A stretch of DNA of 35,613 nt from Planctomycetota bacterium (GTDB lineage: Bacteria; Planctomycetota; Phycisphaerae; Sedimentisphaerales; Anaerohalosphaeraceae). This document shows positions 7,257 to 32,114 of the stretch, one piece after another (position 1 is the stretch's first letter; each line of letters starts with the position of its first letter). The stretch covers positions 1 to 35,613 of the forward strand of contig JAGLHQ010000130.1 in assembly GCA_023143375.1 (NCBI GenBank), in the 5' to 3' direction. The translations under genes were made by a program, and so were the position numbers. Below the pieces are notes generated by a model. It saw nothing but the letters and a program-made list of their open reading frames with translations, was not told the DNA's origin and ran no database searches.

Positions 7257-8330
7257 TTATACCTTGTCAGCAAAGAATATCAAAGCTTCTTCTATGTTTT
7301 TGAACACTTTTGTCGCCGTCTGCGTCACAAACACCGACGGCTCCGCCGCCGCCGCCCACACCACAAAAACTTCTTTCCCAGCCTCATAGGCATGTTGCAG
7401 TTCCCTCTCGACACCGCTCGATATCGCCGCTCGCCCGTCAGCCATCGCAGGAATAAAACTGATTATCATATCCGCCTGATCGATCAACGCAAAGTCACGT
7501 GCATATATCTGGCTGTTAATATCAGCCTCGATCTGCTCGATCTCCCCGACCCCAAACGCAACCTTTTCACCAAGCGACGTGATCGTTATTTCTTTTTCAC
7601 CCTTATCCTTCGCTCGTTTCGCACGGCCCGGCAGATACGCCTCCTCAAGGTTCGCCGGATCGAAGCACGTAAACTTCTCCTTCATCACATTACGAAACCC
7701 CTCGATCTCCTTCATCACATCGTCAAGCTCCATCACATGCGTCATCGGGAAGCTAAGATACGCCTTCTTCCTCTCCGCCTCGAACATCAAACGATAAAAC
7801 GTTTCCACCGTCCCTTTTCCCTCCCCCCGCGAGAGGCTGTACACCTCGGCCGTTTCATTCGTCCCACTCCTCATCATCTCCGTCGCAAGCATCTCCTCTT
7901 CACGCCACACAAGCAGATCCTTCAGCGAATGTCGTATCGGATGCTCGCTCGTCAGCCGAACATGCAGCGCGTCAACGCCGTCGATCATACATATATATTT
8001 GTCCGCGCCCAGTTCACGCATCTGGTCGAAATCAAACGCCCTAAACAATCCATGCCTCCAGCGGAACGTCGCGTGCGTATTTACAATAAGGTTCTCTGCC
8101 GATTTGGCTTTAGCGATGATGTCCTTGATAACGCTTCGACGAAGCGTCTCAAGCCGTTTCAGCGGGATGTCGAGTATGTGACCATCGGCAATATCAGGAG
8201 CCTCCGCGTACATCTCGTCGCCAACATTGCACAGGCTGACGCTTTTGCCCCTGCTCTTAGCCAGCGCGACAACGTCTTGAAGATAACGCTTCTTATCGAT
8301 CCCAACCATTCCAGTTACTACTACGATCAT
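7257..8330 (-). CDS. AdkA-like P-loop-fold protein with nucleoside-deoxyribosyltransferase-like C-terminus
   Basis: The N-terminal half (1-150) looks like archaeal-type adenylate kinase or an AAA-type nucleoside kinase: IVVVTGMVGIDKKRYLQ at the start, SVSLCNVGDEMY, then IVNTHATFRW. The Walker A loop is GMVGIDKKR, without the usual GK[ST], so catalysis is uncertain. The C-terminal part (about 280-357) resembles the end of nucleoside 2-deoxyribosyltransferase/TIR-like folds: a DQADMIISFIP strand, then SSGVERELQHAYEAGKEVFV with a glutamate where the transferases place their nucleophile. ATG at 8330 has GGGAG eight bases upstream. A role in nucleotide metabolism is likely but the substrate is unknown; a fusion is an inference. 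Confidence 0.75.
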   Translation of the reverse strand: MIVVVTGMVGIDKKRYLQDVVALAKSRGKSVSLCNVGDEMYAEAPDIADGHILDIPLKRLETLRRSVIKDIIAKAKSAENLIVNTHATFRWRHGLFRAFDFDQMRELGADKYICMIDGVDALHVRLTSEHPIRHSLKDLLVWREEEMLATEMMRSGTNETAEVYSLSRGEGKGTVETFYRLMFEAERKKAYLSFPMTHVMELDDVMKEIEGFRNVMKEKFTCFDPANLEEAYLPGRAKRAKDKGEKEITITSLGEKVAFGVGEIEQIEADINSQIYARDFALIDQADMIISFIPAMADGRAAISSGVERELQHAYEAGKEVFVVWAAAAEPSVFVTQTATKVFKNIEEALIFFADKV

Positions 8331-9160: not shown

Positions 9161-9290
9161 TGTGCCTTTATGTCCGGGGCTTGGCACGTTGCTACAATGG
9201 TCACTACAAAGCGACGCGAGACCGCGAGGTGGAGCAAATCGCAAAAAAGTGGCCTCAGTTCGGATTGCAGGCTGACAACTCAGCCAGAAT
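9161..9290 (+). pseudogene. Degenerate fragment of a 16S rRNA gene
   Basis: The stretch corresponds to the region around E. coli 16S positions 1195-1310. Landmarks in order are GCCTTTATGTCC, GGGCTTGGCACGTTGCTACA, ACAAAGCGACGCGAGACCGC, GAGGTGGAGCAAATCGCAAA and CTCAGTTCGGATTGCAGGCT, then an eroded GACAACTCAGCC. The GGTCACT/AGTGGCC helix arms are still complementary. The ACAAAGCGACGCGAGACC form is typical of planctomycete 16S. The sequence before 9160 and after 9290 no longer matches, so this is an isolated fragment rather than an rRNA operon. It overlaps the 3' end of the opposite-strand 87-residue gene. Confidence 0.85.
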
Positions 9291-9543
9291 GCCCGAATGC
9301 CGATTTGTATTGTATTTCTTCATCCTCCCATCTAATGATAGACTTTAGAGTCTGGAGGTCTTTAAGTTGAGACTGATCCTTATTTGCTATTTTGACAAGT
9401 TTATTGGTTAAAATTTCTGCTACCTGAGAAGAAATATAAAGATCCATTCTTTCATCAGCCAAATACTCTTGGATTAAATTTCCTTCTATTCCTATTTCTT
9501 TGGGCCAAACTAAAACATTACCATTTAACCTGTTTTCTATCAT
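9280..9543 (-). CDS. Unknown 87-residue protein, last gene of the island operon
   Basis: ATG at 9543 has GAGGA about 8 bases upstream. The protein is acidic and soluble-looking, with a helical middle (EILTNKLVKIANKDQSQLKD, then LQTLKSII) that may form a short coiled coil. No family is recognised. It follows the membrane protein by 15 bases. Its last three codons overlap the 16S fragment on the other strand (stop TGA at 9280-9282), so the original C-terminus may have been altered by whatever event brought the two together. Confidence 0.55.
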   Translation of the reverse strand: MIENRLNGNVLVWPKEIGIEGNLIQEYLADERMDLYISSQVAEILTNKLVKIANKDQSQLKDLQTLKSIIRWEDEEIQYKSAFGHSG

Positions 9544-9558
9544 ATTAGTTTTCCTCTA

Positions 9559-10119
9559 TCAGTCATTATCTTTTCTATACTTAAGCATTCGGAATATGGG
9601 CTTTGTCAAAATGAAAACGATGGTTATCGCCACAATAATTCCAAGAACAATTAAAACAAAATTCTGGCCGTAATCGCTTGCCTTATAGAAAACCTCAAAA
9701 GATATTCCTATCACACTTGAAATCAATATACCAGATACAACATAAAGTTCTCGCATTCTTACTTGCGATAATTTCATGTTATCGTTTGGCTTTCCCGAGG
9801 CATCTAATTCAGGCTCTCCTGGTATTTCTAAAACCTTTTTACGAAATCTTATGTCACCATAGCGTGCCCTTATTTGCCACCATACTCTTTTTGAGATATC
9901 ATTTATAATAAAGCCGACAATGTAGCAAAAAAGCACGAAAACAACAAGGCTGAATGTAGAAATAAAACTTCCCAGCGACTTGAGAATCTCGAGATTATTC
10001 TTATCATGATAAAAAGAATACGAAGTTAATATTCCTAAGGCCCTTAATGTACAAACAACCCCAAGTGGGACACCTTGCAAAATAATCCACCAAAACCGTT
10101 CAGTTATTTCTTTGAGCAT
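9559..10119 (-). CDS. Four-helix membrane protein, unknown function (island)
   Basis: The 186-residue protein has four predicted transmembrane segments, about residues 9-30, 48-72, 124-143 and 149-173. A basic loop of roughly 45 residues between helices 2 and 3 (SKRVWWQIRARYGDIRFRKK) is probably cytoplasmic. ATG at 10119 has AGGAGA five bases upstream, and the preceding gene ends 13 bases away, so it is cotranscribed. Codons are A/T-rich like the rest of the island. In such an operon it could be a membrane effector or anchor, but nothing in the sequence proves this. Confidence 0.75.
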   Translation of the reverse strand: MLKEITERFWWIILQGVPLGVVCTLRALGILTSYSFYHDKNNLEILKSLGSFISTFSLVVFVLFCYIVGFIINDISKRVWWQIRARYGDIRFRKKVLEIPGEPELDASGKPNDNMKLSQVRMRELYVVSGILISSVIGISFEVFYKASDYGQNFVLIVLGIIVAITIVFILTKPIFRMLKYRKDND

Positions 10120-10132
10120 TCCATTCTCCTAA

Positions 10133-10825
10133 TTATTTACTTTGTTCATCCATATCAAAAAATTCTTTTTCTCCAATATTTCTCCCTTTTGCATTTTCCT
10201 TTGGGCCAACGCCCACTCTGAGATTTTCAAGGATTGTTGAAATTATATTTACAATTGTATCCAAGGACGGCTTGACACAAGACATTACAGGGTGGCCAAC
10301 ATGTAATAGCTTTTCGTCGTCAACTTTTATACCCGAAATAATATGAGTGCCCTCTGCACAACTCGCAAATTCTTTAATTGATTTCATAATAATCTCGTCA
10401 ATCTCATCGTTATTGTGATCTTCTTTAGATTTAGAGGTCAACCTCAAACATGAGATAAAAAGTTGTGACTTCCCAAACGAGATTCCCTTTTTTTTTGCGT
10501 TTTCACACTCTCTTATAGTTTCTTTAAATATTGGCATCTGTTTAAAAAGCGAAGCTATTATATTCGAATGCCAGCATGTTTGATTAGCTCCGTAGATAAT
10601 TACCATAGCGTTGCAGTTGATATAATCAGTTATCTCGTTTTCCTTAAGAAAAAATGTATCATTAGGAGATGAGGAATACCTAAGACCTGTAGCGTCATCT
10701 GATTCTAATATCACATCTTTATTCAAACATCGAATCCATTTACTTATACCTTCTTTGATATAATCTACTTCATGAGATGATGTAAACATGCCGAAATGAG
10801 GAATAAAAATGCTTGTCTCAGACAT
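10133..10825 (-). CDS. Unknown island protein, possible Rossmann/TIR-like N-terminal half
   Basis: A 230-residue protein starting at ATG 10825, with GGAG nine bases upstream and only two bases after the stop of the synthetase-like gene; a GTG at 10840 would add five residues and overlap the upstream gene. Residues 5-100 have the rhythm of a TIR/deoxyribosyltransferase-like alpha/beta fold: a SIFIPHFGMFTSS strand and loop, a helix, a VILESDD strand, then EITDYINCNAMVIIYGAN followed by CWHSNIIASLF. The C-terminal part (105-215) contains LLHVGHPVMSCVKPS and a Lys/Glu-rich tail. No catalytic motif is certain and the fold call is weak. Confidence 0.7.
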   Translation of the reverse strand: MSETSIFIPHFGMFTSSHEVDYIKEGISKWIRCLNKDVILESDDATGLRYSSSPNDTFFLKENEITDYINCNAMVIIYGANQTCWHSNIIASLFKQMPIFKETIRECENAKKKGISFGKSQLFISCLRLTSKSKEDHNNDEIDEIIMKSIKEFASCAEGTHIISGIKVDDEKLLHVGHPVMSCVKPSLDTIVNIISTILENLRVGVGPKENAKGRNIGEKEFFDMDEQSK

Positions 10826-10827
10826 AA

Positions 10828-11697
10828 CTATATACTCCACTGTTGGAATAAATCATGTATTGTTTCTGATAGAATATTTATATCCTTATCTAAATCAGAG
10901 ATGAAATCTTTCTCATCAAATGAATATGACAGAAAACGCCTAGACATATCTTCATCACAGAGAGATGCAGCCACTACACTTATATGTAAACAATATTCCC
11001 ATATAGATCGATATCGTTGGTCACGAGATTTTTTTAGCAAAGTATAAACCATATCTTTTGATGAATTTGAAAGGTATAATTCACTTCCAGCAAAAAGCCA
11101 TAGCTCAGGCAAATATATTGGACAAATATCAAGAGGTGATTTTTTCATGCTGATTCTTTCAAGCCAATATTGAATATAATATGCCTCGACTTGGCCAATC
11201 AGTAAAAATTGTGCTTTGGAATTATGTGCTTCTAGCAATAGAGCCAGAGCATCTTTGCGACATCCTTTTATCTCATCATCTTGTTCTTCCATTGGCGACA
11301 TAGCTGAAGAGATGGCCTGCTCGTATTTACTGAGAGCACTTGTAAGACAAGTTTCTGATATAGATTCTTTATAATCAGCAAAATGCTCCTGTGTAATCGC
11401 ACGCAAAAAACCCTTGTCTTCCTCGGAAGAATCATTGTCTCTTAAAAAGAAAATGACTTCGACACCTATTTTGAGTAATTGCTCTACTCTTGCAAACAAT
11501 AATATCTGGATGAGTACAGGATCATTGCTTGGTGTTATTGGAACTATCACACATGTTTGTGTTGGTGAAAGTTCCATTATACGATTTCTTGTCCTTGACG
11601 CCTGATCGTGAAAATGAAAATTGACAAAATATGGAAAATATTTTTTGTCATATACCGTCCCCTGAAGCAAGAGATCACTACTGTTTGTTTCACTCAT
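10828..11697 (-). CDS. Class Ic aminoacyl-tRNA-synthetase-like protein lacking HIGH and KMSKS (island)
   Basis: The 289-residue protein aligns by eye with archaeal-type Tyr/Trp-tRNA synthetases. CVIVPITPSNDP (49-60) sits where the PTGxLHxGH strand would be, but the histidines are absent. EQLLKIGVEVIFFLRDND (72-89) matches the following helix-strand. AQFLLIGQVEAYYIQYW (162-178) matches the vGxDQxxHI segment, and YLPELWLFAG (195-204) the pocket before KMSKS. The KMSKS loop is missing: the frame resumes at ELYLSNSSKDMVYTLLKK (206-223). FDEKDFISDLDKDINIL (260-276) fits the C-terminal helices. Cyclodipeptide synthases, also derived from this fold, are an alternative. ATG 11697 has AGGAAGG seven bases upstream. 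Confidence 0.7.
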   Translation of the reverse strand: MSETNSSDLLLQGTVYDKKYFPYFVNFHFHDQASRTRNRIMELSPTQTCVIVPITPSNDPVLIQILLFARVEQLLKIGVEVIFFLRDNDSSEEDKGFLRAITQEHFADYKESISETCLTSALSKYEQAISSAMSPMEEQDDEIKGCRKDALALLLEAHNSKAQFLLIGQVEAYYIQYWLERISMKKSPLDICPIYLPELWLFAGSELYLSNSSKDMVYTLLKKSRDQRYRSIWEYCLHISVVAASLCDEDMSRRFLSYSFDEKDFISDLDKDINILSETIHDLFQQWSI

Positions 11698-11729
11698 TAT
11701 ACGGCCTTCCTATCATGAGGAATTTGTAA

Positions 11730-12707
11730 TTATTTATGTTTTTTGATAACTCTAGCAACCTTACGAGATATTGTTTTTTCAGAGATTGCGCATGGGGGAT
11801 CAGTGTCGGTCACAGGTACCTTAAATGTCATTCCAAATTTCTTCATTAGAACTCGATTGCTGTCTAATCCATATACAATTTTAGTCACAGGAAAACCTGC
11901 TTGGTCAACAGGCACGTGAAATTCCGAAATCTCAATCATATCACTATAAAATGCCACTGTATAATATCGGCACACTGCCCCAGATACTATAGCCGATGAT
12001 AAGGGGTCTTGCAAATTATCATTCATGAAAGTTAACAGTGAACCCGCATTGAGACAAGGGGTTCCCTCAACAATGTCAACCCCGGCACCTTCATGAATAT
12101 GCCCACAAATTAGAATATTAGGTTTTTTCTTTATATTTCTTAGAAAATCGCGGATACCAATACTGCCAATATGATTTGTTGTTTCCGAATGTATATCTAG
12201 ATAACATTTTTGAGGCGGAGAATGTGTAAGCAATATTCGAGTTTGCGCCTTATTCCACTTTGACAGAGCACGAGGCGGAATAGTTACACGATCACTTTTC
12301 CACTCATATGGCCATAAACCCATTCCAGGACTACCGCCAATGCCTAAAAATGAAATTCCATTGGATGAAAAAGGTGCACTTCCTAAAAGGACATCAACAT
12401 TACGCAACTTACCTTTTAGGTGCCGTTCCTTGCGGAAAAATTCTTTTCTGTCATGATTGCCAGGCACAAACAAGAGAGGTTTTTTAAGTTTAGCAATTGC
12501 TGAGAGAATTGCATTTGTCTGTATTTCATATAGTTGCTTGCGAAGTTTATTTGTCATTTCAATGTCACCCATGACATCTGGGCCGATATCACCTGTGCAA
12601 ACCATAAAATCAACATCATGGTTAGATGCATGACAAATAGTATTTAAAAGAACAATACTATCTCCATGTATGTCCCCGAAAACCAGAATTTTTGTTATTG
12701 GTTTCAT
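11730..12707 (-). CDS. Calcineurin-like metallophosphoesterase (island)
   Basis: All five metal-binding motifs are present: FGDIHGD (D12, H14), CTGDIG (D40), VPGNHDR (N84, H85), LLTHSPP (H162) and CGHIHEG (H203, H205). The protein should hydrolyse a phosphomono- or diester using two metal ions. The THSPP...GHIHEG pattern is common in archaeal phosphoesterases. The C-terminal 80 residues form a beta-rich then basic tail (SRKVARVIKKHK). ATG at 12707 is chosen because AGGTGGA lies five bases upstream; the frame extends to 12731 into the preceding gene but without a ribosome site. Only ten bases separate it from the nucleotidyltransferase, so it may reverse or process that enzyme's product. Confidence 0.9.
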   Translation of the reverse strand: MKPITKILVFGDIHGDSIVLLNTICHASNHDVDFMVCTGDIGPDVMGDIEMTNKLRKQLYEIQTNAILSAIAKLKKPLLFVPGNHDRKEFFRKERHLKGKLRNVDVLLGSAPFSSNGISFLGIGGSPGMGLWPYEWKSDRVTIPPRALSKWNKAQTRILLTHSPPQKCYLDIHSETTNHIGSIGIRDFLRNIKKKPNILICGHIHEGAGVDIVEGTPCLNAGSLLTFMNDNLQDPLSSAIVSGAVCRYYTVAFYSDMIEISEFHVPVDQAGFPVTKIVYGLDSNRVLMKKFGMTFKVPVTDTDPPCAISEKTISRKVARVIKKHK

Positions 12708-12717
12708 GCTAATCCAC

Positions 12718-14514
12718 CTAAACATTACCATTTGTTACTATATTCATTAGGTTTTGATGTATGAAATCAAAATCTTTTGTTATAGACATTTGGCTTTTTC
12801 CTTCAAGCCTATATGAATCGCTACAAATTAATAAGTCGTGAACATCAATTTCGACTGGATTTTTAGAAAATTTCCCGTTTTTAAGTTTGTCAAAACGAAG
12901 CATAGTTTGATTTGTTTTATATTGCAAAGGTAAAACCACAGCGCCATTATTGCCAATGGATACTAACCATTTGTGGTCAGTATGTTTAAATTCAAATAAT
13001 TGAGAGTTAGAGATAGTTAATATTTCTACAATACGCTCGATGGCTTTAATAGCCTTGATAGAATATAGTTCTATTTCAAATAGATGTTTCTTTGTAGAAT
13101 ATTTGCCTTCCTTCGCCTTGTTTTCTAAGTCTGACAAATGTGATAACAATTCAGAAATTGTTTTGTTAGGCACAGGGAGTTGCGACAAAAACAAATTGAT
13201 TTCTGCTCTTTTCAGTCTACCTTTAAAGGTGACACTGAGAGCATTTACATAGCCATTGAAGTTAGACAAGACAAACTCCATAAGTTGCCTCAGTTTTGCT
13301 TCCCTATTTTCTTTCTGAATCTGTTTATGGAATTTGGAAAACACCTTCTGAGCTTCTTGCACCTCTTTATAAAGAGTGGAGATTTCATTTGGAGATAACC
13401 GTTTCCGTTCTCCATACTCAAGCTTTTTGCGAATAAGTACAACTTTCGATAGAGTCTTAAACGCTGTTCGCGAAAATGAATATGGTTTCTTAAGGAAATC
13501 ATTCTTGAACGTTTGGACCGTTTCCTGTGGTGTTAAAGGAGGATGTCCTTTTATTAACAGGATCGCCTGAGCATAATTCAATAGAGAATAGTACAATTGC
13601 TCTGGCCCGACTTTCGATATAAGCCAGCCAGCATCATTAAAAGCGGAATTTGCTCCCTCTATCAAAGCTTCGTCGGATTCTAAAGAAGGTTTTATACGGC
13701 CAGTGCGAAGCATCTTCTTCCATGGAGTTATTAGTCCTTTATCGTAAAGAGGGACTGCATCGCGAAGCAAGGTGTAGATTACAGGGCTACCGTTCTTCAA
13801 TGATTCCCAAAAATGTGTAAGCACATAAAGTTGCGAATTAATGTTCAGTTCAATATCAAATTGTGCTGCAAGTTCATCGCCCATTTTAATGATAATATTA
13901 TGCAACTTATCCCTTAATTCAGCCAAAGGCATTCTTTTAACATCAGTGTCATCTAAAATACAGAAAACATCAAGGTCGCTTTTGGAAGTACTAGTCCCCC
14001 GGACGCTGGAGCCCGAAAAGCAGTAACATACAACATATTTTTCAAATTTTTTCATGACCTTTTTTTTGTGATGAAGTGCAAGAATGAATGTAACTAAAAA
14101 ATTACTATCTGCAACTAATACCCCCCCCATAAATCGAATTATCATACTTGGTTGAACTGTACTATCAACACATATTTCCCACAAAGCCGAAACATGAATG
14201 ATTTCAGGATGTTTTTTCCCTAAGTTGCATTTTTTGAAAGATTTGCCAATAACTTCTTCACGTTTTTTTGCTATCTTCCCAACATTTTTAGAAGTTATGT
14301 CGGAAACAATAACAGCTACTTCACAAGATTGCTTTCGCTTTTTAGTCTTTCCCCCATCATCATCTTCTTCTTCTGGCAGCAAGACTAAAACACCCACTAA
14401 ATCGTCGCCTAATTTGGTTTTTATTTCGGCTGCAAATTTTTCTAATTTGACCTTATGACGACGAAAAAAATTGAGCGGTTCTTTAGCCGCAAATGGATTT
14501 TGCTTTGTCAACAT
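12718..14514 (-). CDS. Large nucleotidyltransferase with Pol-beta fold, archaeal-like (first gene of island)
   Basis: The 598-residue protein contains a Pol-beta-type nucleotidyltransferase core at about 155-260: FSGSSVRGTSTSKSDLDVFC holds the GS loop (G168, S169) and the two metal carboxylates D180 and D182, with D220 or E222 the probable third. HFWESLKNGSPVIYTLLRD and VPLYDKGLITPWKKML are the family continuation I associate with archaeal nucleotidyltransferases, followed by a HEPN-like helical region (270-400). Residues 20-150 look like a second, eroded domain (LVGVLVLLPEEE...CEVAVIVSD). The tail (400-598) is unrecognised. It transfers a nucleotide to RNA, protein or a small molecule; the target is unknown. 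It heads the six-gene operon. Confidence 0.85.
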   Translation of the reverse strand: MLTKQNPFAAKEPLNFFRRHKVKLEKFAAEIKTKLGDDLVGVLVLLPEEEDDDGGKTKKRKQSCEVAVIVSDITSKNVGKIAKKREEVIGKSFKKCNLGKKHPEIIHVSALWEICVDSTVQPSMIIRFMGGVLVADSNFLVTFILALHHKKKVMKKFEKYVVCYCFSGSSVRGTSTSKSDLDVFCILDDTDVKRMPLAELRDKLHNIIIKMGDELAAQFDIELNINSQLYVLTHFWESLKNGSPVIYTLLRDAVPLYDKGLITPWKKMLRTGRIKPSLESDEALIEGANSAFNDAGWLISKVGPEQLYYSLLNYAQAILLIKGHPPLTPQETVQTFKNDFLKKPYSFSRTAFKTLSKVVLIRKKLEYGERKRLSPNEISTLYKEVQEAQKVFSKFHKQIQKENREAKLRQLMEFVLSNFNGYVNALSVTFKGRLKRAEINLFLSQLPVPNKTISELLSHLSDLENKAKEGKYSTKKHLFEIELYSIKAIKAIERIVEILTISNSQLFEFKHTDHKWLVSIGNNGAVVLPLQYKTNQTMLRFDKLKNGKFSKNPVEIDVHDLLICSDSYRLEGKSQMSITKDFDFIHQNLMNIVTNGNV

Positions 14515-31372: not shown

Positions 31373-31936
31373 TCAACTCTTGTCGCTAACTTTACACCAT
31401 TGATCTAAAAGATCGTATTCGGCAACTCTTTGGCTTATTATTGTTTTGTCGATAACATCAGCTGAGAATTCAAGCATCTTTTCTATATCACGAAGATGCT
31501 TATCGCTTTGCCCTTCTTTATAGTATTGCAATTTTTTTATTATTACATACTCCGGCGGCGCGATCCATATATCCGATCCTTCTATTTTAATCTGATGCCT
31601 GTTGGCCATGGCCCATTTGTGCAACTCCTCCTGCCCCATAGGATACACATCCGCCTTAAATCCTGTCGCATGGTGAATTATATTGAAATGACCTTCTTTT
31701 TCTCTGGCGATCTGTGCATTAATAGTTTCCTTCGATGGACAATAAAACTCCTCGATAGGAAATAACTCAACAAAGACAGATACTTCTTCTGCGCGAAGCT
31801 CTAGCACAAGATCGACATCATGCGTTAGGCGAGGTTCACCGTATATAACGCTGGCAACAGAGCCGGTAACCATATAAGGTAAACCGCCTTGGTTTAAACG
31901 TTTCAGAAACACTAAAAATAGACTAGCTTCTTGCAT
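31373..31936 (-). CDS. Nucleotidyltransferase of a two-gene cassette
   Basis: The 187-residue protein has the minimal nucleotidyltransferase motif MVTGSVASVIYGEPRLTHDV with GS at 25-26 and the metal aspartates D40 and D42, then PPEYVIIKKLQYYKEG, a conserved helix of AbiEii/DUF6036-like enzymes. It overlaps the preceding 63-residue gene by 14 bases, so translation is coupled; ATG 31936 itself has a poor ribosome site. Such enzymes include toxins that modify tRNA 3' ends, but a metabolic role is also possible. Confidence 0.85.
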   Translation of the reverse strand: MQEASLFLVFLKRLNQGGLPYMVTGSVASVIYGEPRLTHDVDLVLELRAEEVSVFVELFPIEEFYCPSKETINAQIAREKEGHFNIIHHATGFKADVYPMGQEELHKWAMANRHQIKIEGSDIWIAPPEYVIIKKLQYYKEGQSDKHLRDIEKMLEFSADVIDKTIISQRVAEYDLLDQWCKVSDKS

Positions 31937-32114
31937 GTGCAAATATATCCGTTACTGCTTTTTGAACTTGCTCCTCCGACCAATCGCTGTGCAGATGTCT
32001 AAGCCATGCGGCCTTGAGATTTCTGGCAGAGTAATAAAGACGCATTGACATCTGAAGCTTTTTCTCCGGCGTCATCTTTCGTATGATATCATTTTGTATT
32101 TCCTGTGCATCCAT
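31923..32114 (-). CDS. Small helical partner of the nucleotidyltransferase
   Basis: A 63-residue protein, all helical in appearance and rich in Lys, Arg and Ala (KKLQMSMRLYYSARNLKAAW, LRHLHSDWSEEQVQKAVTDI). It overlaps and precedes the nucleotidyltransferase, as an antitoxin or folding partner would. ATG 32114 lacks a clear ribosome site. The stop is inside the next gene. It diverges from the ABC-F gene 45-60 bases away. Confidence 0.75.
   Translation of the reverse strand: MDAQEIQNDIIRKMTPEKKLQMSMRLYYSARNLKAAWLRHLHSDWSEEQVQKAVTDIFAHARS

Follow-up and report, generated by a model that had tools for sequence, protein, structure and literature searches.

The window analysed here, the whole 35,613-nucleotide stretch of contig JAGLHQ010000130.1 from a member of the Planctomycetota (assembly GCA_023143375.1), contains a tight operon of six genes at 9280–14514. 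The operon is read from right to left in the order NTase598, MPE333, ORF289, ORF235, TM186 and s87. ORF289, its third gene, is the subject of this analysis. The features are as follows:

12718–14514, minus strand: NTase598, the head of the operon, with two nucleotidyltransferase-like domains and a putative helical HEPN/UPF0332-like domain.
11730–12731, minus strand: MPE333, a calcineurin-like metallophosphoesterase with intact DIH, GDIG, GNHD, THSPP and GHIH motifs.
10828–11697, minus strand: ORF289, an orphan acidic protein of 289 aa.
11368–11568, minus strand: residues 44–110 of ORF289, the sole part of the protein that matches archaeal TyrRS/TrpRS, weakly and in their first Rossmann half.
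10133–10825, minus strand: ORF235, an orphan acidic protein of no family.
9559–10119, minus strand: TM186, a membrane protein; its match to the BA5345 family (E 6.5e-5, 23 bits) stays below the cut-off of 40 bits.
9280–9543, minus strand: s87, a small orphan ORF and the last gene of the operon.
9280–14514, no strand: a low-GC island; GC is about 34–38% here and about 50% in the flanks, and GC3 about 0.3 and about 0.6, respectively.

The first-pass annotation had placed ORF289 inside a nucleotidyltransferase operon, and the genes are closely packed. NTase598 and MPE333 overlap by 14 bp, 32 bp separate MPE333 from the start of ORF289, and the likely ATG of ORF235 (10825) directly follows the ORF289 stop codon, so that ORF235 is probably translationally coupled to ORF289. 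The ORF289 reading frame opens with the ATG at 11697, preceded by a purine-rich GGAAGG, and ends with the stop codon at 10828. Its codon usage matches that of the island neighbours in the correct frame only (+0.11 bits per codon, compared with −0.28 and −0.36 for the alternative frames), and it is therefore a genuine bacterial gene. The ORF289 protein has a net charge of −15 and a pI of 4.8. The net charge of ORF235 is −8, and those of NTase598 and MPE333 are +23 and +11, respectively.

The codon usage of the island is foreign to its surroundings. The genes flanking the island have good homologues in genomes of the same family, and neither NTase598 nor ORF289 has a homologue in the approximately 390 phylum genomes searched with each. 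The low GC content, the homologues of the flanking genes in the family and the absence of NTase598 and ORF289 from the phylum together indicate that the operon was probably acquired horizontally. A clean empty site was not recovered from the relatives, where the flanking homologues lie on different contigs, and no repeats framing the island stood out. Outside the island, the ORF at 7257–8330 encodes an AAA_17 kinase-like domain (E 1e-6) fused to a weak nucleoside 2-deoxyribosyltransferase-like domain (E 0.002). A further nucleotidyltransferase-like ORF was recognised by eye at 31373–31942 (VTGSVASVIYGEPRLTHDVDLV), with no link to the island.

NTase598 carries the GSxxRG...SDxD motif as FSGSSVRGTSTSKSDLDVF and matches the Pfam NTP_transf_2 model with 25.6 bits (cut-off 21). 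The GS...SDLD motif of its second nucleotidyltransferase domain is intact, and G168, S169, G173, S179, D180 and D182 are invariant in the family alignment. Relatives were sought by scanning about 85,000 species genomes with a degenerate pattern, and were confirmed by tblastn with the true sequence. Ten were found, all of them in DPANN archaea (Woesearchaeota, Nanoarchaeia, Aenigmatarchaeota and unplaced DPANN), with E-values down to 3e-74. These proteins are ~620 aa long, and the alignment spans almost the entire length for all but one of the ten. NTase598 was absent from the 392 phylum genomes sampled, and its presence in a bacterial contig is likely the result of an inter-domain transfer. 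The archaeal relatives lie in unrelated neighbourhoods, with neither the phosphoesterase nor ORF289 beside them; the composition of the operon has thus been seen only once.

Of note, the archaeal relatives often adjoin a second, shorter nucleotidyltransferase of ~290 aa, which suggests that the two form a conserved pair. The shorter genes are located at:

L061, 5382–6320: ~290-aa nucleotidyltransferase beside a DPANN relative.
L062, 864–1727: the same.
L064, 7920–8792: the same.
L066, 7889–8761: the same.
L067, 8505–9353: the same.

The NTase598 profile gave weak matches to MNT antitoxins, kanamycin nucleotidyltransferase and the UPF0332 protein AF0298 (E 0.018 for AF0298). In a structure model built from 11 sequences (pLDDT 71), a long helical part (helices at 278–425) accompanies two nucleotidyltransferase-like units. 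In Foldseek searches, this model was closest, at modest significance, to ANT/MNT enzymes and Hailong HalB, with kanamycin nucleotidyltransferase as the best match (E 1.7e-3). Motifs, profiles and model point to an MNT/ANT-type nucleotidyltransferase with a putative HEPN-like helical domain. It shares the GS..SDxD motif with ANT-type nucleotidyltransferases and with MNT-HEPN (type VII) modules, and probably also a HEPN/UPF0332-like helical domain. However, MNT-HEPN modules are two-gene toxin-antitoxin pairs, whereas NTase598 is a single multi-domain protein of 598 aa from a DPANN family, and is coupled to a phosphoesterase and orphan genes.

The intact motifs of MPE333 mark it as an active-looking phosphoesterase. 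MPE333 matched the PADLOC PDC-S10 (phosphoesterase) model with an E-value of 4e-17, and NTase598 weakly matched PDC-S09 (nucleotidyltransferase; E 1e-3); both matches probably stem from the generic enzyme domains. ORF289, ORF235, TM186 and s87 matched none of the PADLOC models. Homologues of MPE333 in the phylum proved to be generic phosphoesterases without the other island genes and were discarded as a guide to context. A TIR-type alpha/beta domain suspected by eye in ORF235 (NAMVIIYGANQTCWHSN) was likewise rejected, as it found no family or PDB support.

ORF289 matched no entry in Pfam, NCBIfam or the PDB, and its matches to PHROGs were all sub-significant. Neither the overlapping sets of 392 genomes from the phylum and 397 from the class nor the genomes of the family yielded a relative, and tblastn against plasmids and phages found none either. 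Viral and genome contigs, scanned with patterns, gave nothing usable. These scans were widened with degenerate variants of our own making (rows added to alignments A1–A3 and A5), which served that purpose only; every relative reported here was verified by a tblastn search in which the window protein was left unaltered. No convincing relative was present in 157 DPANN genomes. The few weak matches there (E 0.007–0.05) were short and partial, and either the proteins concerned were unrelated or the frames were interrupted by stops, as is expected when so many genomes are searched. A conflict gene that evolves fast would be expected to lack relatives in this way. AlphaFold2 on the single sequence gave an unusable model (pLDDT 37.8, pTM 0.26), and the best Foldseek match of this low-confidence model was noise (E 0.13).

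The first-pass annotation had read ORF289 as resembling archaeal TyrRS/TrpRS in four segments, with both ATP-handling signatures missing. The loss of the signatures was confirmed, as a pattern search found neither HxGH/N nor KxSxS. The four quoted peptides do occur in order, at residues 49, 168, 206 and 260. Only the first, however, lies in a region with a detectable, weak likeness to these synthetases (residues 44–110), whereas the other three score at chance level. Against an archaeal class Ic profile (30 DPANN TyrRS/TrpRS plus the Methanocaldococcus jannaschii TyrRS, its sequence verified against 1J1U), full-length ORF289 scored 7.0 bits over residues 50–103 only, a score equalled by 1 of 2000 shuffled sequences. 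Residues 44–110 alone scored 9.6 bits (equalled by 0 of 1000 shuffles) and aligned to the HIGH-containing half of the profile. ORF289 was also the top non-synthetase among ~358 real proteins, with a score of 6.9 (runner-up 4.1), and class Ic was the best of 16 family profiles. The best local alignment with the M. jannaschii TyrRS is nearly ungapped over residues 43–115 and was equalled by 37 of 500 shuffles. In this alignment, FEPSGKIHLGHY and ITPSNDPVLIQI stand opposite each other, and VLIQ occupies the place of HIGH.

The remainder of the protein was silent. Residues 105–289 (185 residues), which contain three of the four quoted segments, did not match the archaeal profile and scored −1.1 bits against a combined profile (equalled by 151 of 1000 shuffles). 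The proposed deletion of the KMSKS loop is thus no more than a reading of the alignment. By hhalign, the probability of a match between ORF289 and class Ic was 5.8%. Profiles built from the bacterial TyrRS and TrpRS of related genomes gave nothing above shuffles, and the 44–110 fragment found nothing relevant in Pfam, NCBIfam or the PDB. The Pfam tRNA-synt_1b model did not detect ORF289; the same model found the TyrRS and TrpRS of this genome (E 1.7e-71 and 6.4e-64), the genes for which are located elsewhere and have no internal stops.

The weak signal is confined to one beta-alpha-beta unit and is compatible with a distant class Ic ancestry and likewise with a generic alpha/beta fold. Its strength is insufficient for homology, because any of thousands of conceivable families could have drawn a reader's eye, and an equal match to some family is expected by chance. 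It is quite possible, although short of probable, that the stretch belongs to a different, nucleotide- or NAD-binding alpha/beta family unrelated to synthetases and represents its generic beta-alpha-beta unit, and that ORF289 may itself be an enzyme. The matched stretch corresponds to about one such unit, the commonest element of alpha/beta folds, and it retains no synthetase-specific residue. The lower scores of the other control families speak against this explanation, though the control set was small.

We consider it unlikely that ORF289 derives from a class Ic (TyrRS/TrpRS-like) Rossmann protein by degeneration, with loss of HIGH and KMSKS, and now binds tRNA, aminoacyl-tRNA, aminoacyl-adenylate or a nucleotide without activating an amino acid. 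The behaviour of residues 44–110 against shuffles, decoys and the 15 other family profiles is in its favour, as are the identical ungapped register in the M. jannaschii alignment and a length similar to that of class Ic synthetases (PF00579; 1J1U), the first catalytic-domain beta-alpha-beta unit of which these residues weakly fit. Unlike these enzymes, ORF289 shows no signal for the second Rossmann half or the C-terminal part, and it is more acidic than any of 31 TyrRS/TrpRS, in which net charge ranges from −9 to +28. This charge would argue against the use of aminoacyl-tRNA. The suggested binding of tRNA or aminoacyl-tRNA found no independent support near the operon either: an Rfam scan of the window returned a single tRNA (tRNA-His, 328–402), far from the operon, and no RNA family nearby. 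An extended form of this proposal, in which a synthetase-derived Rossmann protein without ATP signatures was recruited into a mobile nucleotidyltransferase-phosphoesterase operon and senses or presents an aminoacyl-tRNA, aminoacyl-adenylate or nucleotide signal, is in our judgement distinctly improbable.

The comparison with cyclodipeptide synthases (AlbC, PDB 3OQV), which would share with ORF289 the loss of HIGH and KMSKS on a class Ic-like Rossmann fold, fails. A profile of four synthases of known structure scored −1.0 bits, a value equalled by 341 of 2000 shuffles. These enzymes use a Ser after the first strand, together with a Tyr and a Glu in the pocket (PMC7566563). When the first strands were matched by eye, ORF289 had no Ser at the catalytic position but a hydroxyl residue (T55) near it, and the Tyr and Glu could not be located without a significant alignment. 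Despite the idea of a shared superfamily and the position of T55, it is thus highly improbable that ORF289 acts on aminoacyl-tRNAs as a cyclodipeptide synthase or as an enzyme of closely similar function, the more so as no obvious tailoring genes lie nearby.

The explanation that we tentatively prefer, at a little less than even probability, is that ORF289 is a soluble, fast-evolving, acidic accessory protein of an imported operon. The tight packing of the genes, the low GC content and foreign codon usage of the island, the homology of NTase598 to DPANN proteins and the complete motifs of MPE333 are all consistent with this explanation. It also accommodates the lack in ORF289 of any signature required for amino acid activation and, as weak evidence, the opposite charges of the acidic ORF289 and ORF235 and the basic NTase598 and MPE333. 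On the other hand, the searches returned no relative of ORF289, so that conservation speaks neither for its fold nor for a partnership with the nucleotidyltransferase. The readings discussed are not strictly exclusive of one another.

A function in conflict or stress is the most likely one for the six-gene operon as a whole. The nucleotidyltransferase may attach a nucleotide to a partner or make a nucleotide for it, and the phosphoesterase may reverse or trim that modification or product. A precedent for a nucleotidyltransferase acting on its partner is the modification of HepT by MntA, as stated in PMC7641770. Sensing or execution would fall to the membrane protein and the small partner genes, with the orphan acidic proteins as candidate partners, sensors or substrates. 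As an accessory protein, ORF289 would probably have an alpha/beta, Rossmann-like fold in its N-terminal half and be mostly helical in its C-terminal half, and would probably bind the basic nucleotidyltransferase, the phosphoesterase or the nucleotide product rather than activate an amino acid.

Should ORF289 nevertheless prove to be a gutted class Ic synthetase, it would be a further case like the cyclodipeptide synthases, here in a nucleotide-modification operon; if recruited as proposed, it would represent a new route of class Ic synthetases into biological conflict systems. The firmer interest of the locus lies less in the synthetase idea than in a bacterial genome that carries a complete double nucleotidyltransferase of DPANN-archaeal type, wired to a phosphoesterase and orphan genes in what may be an unrecognised conflict or defence module.
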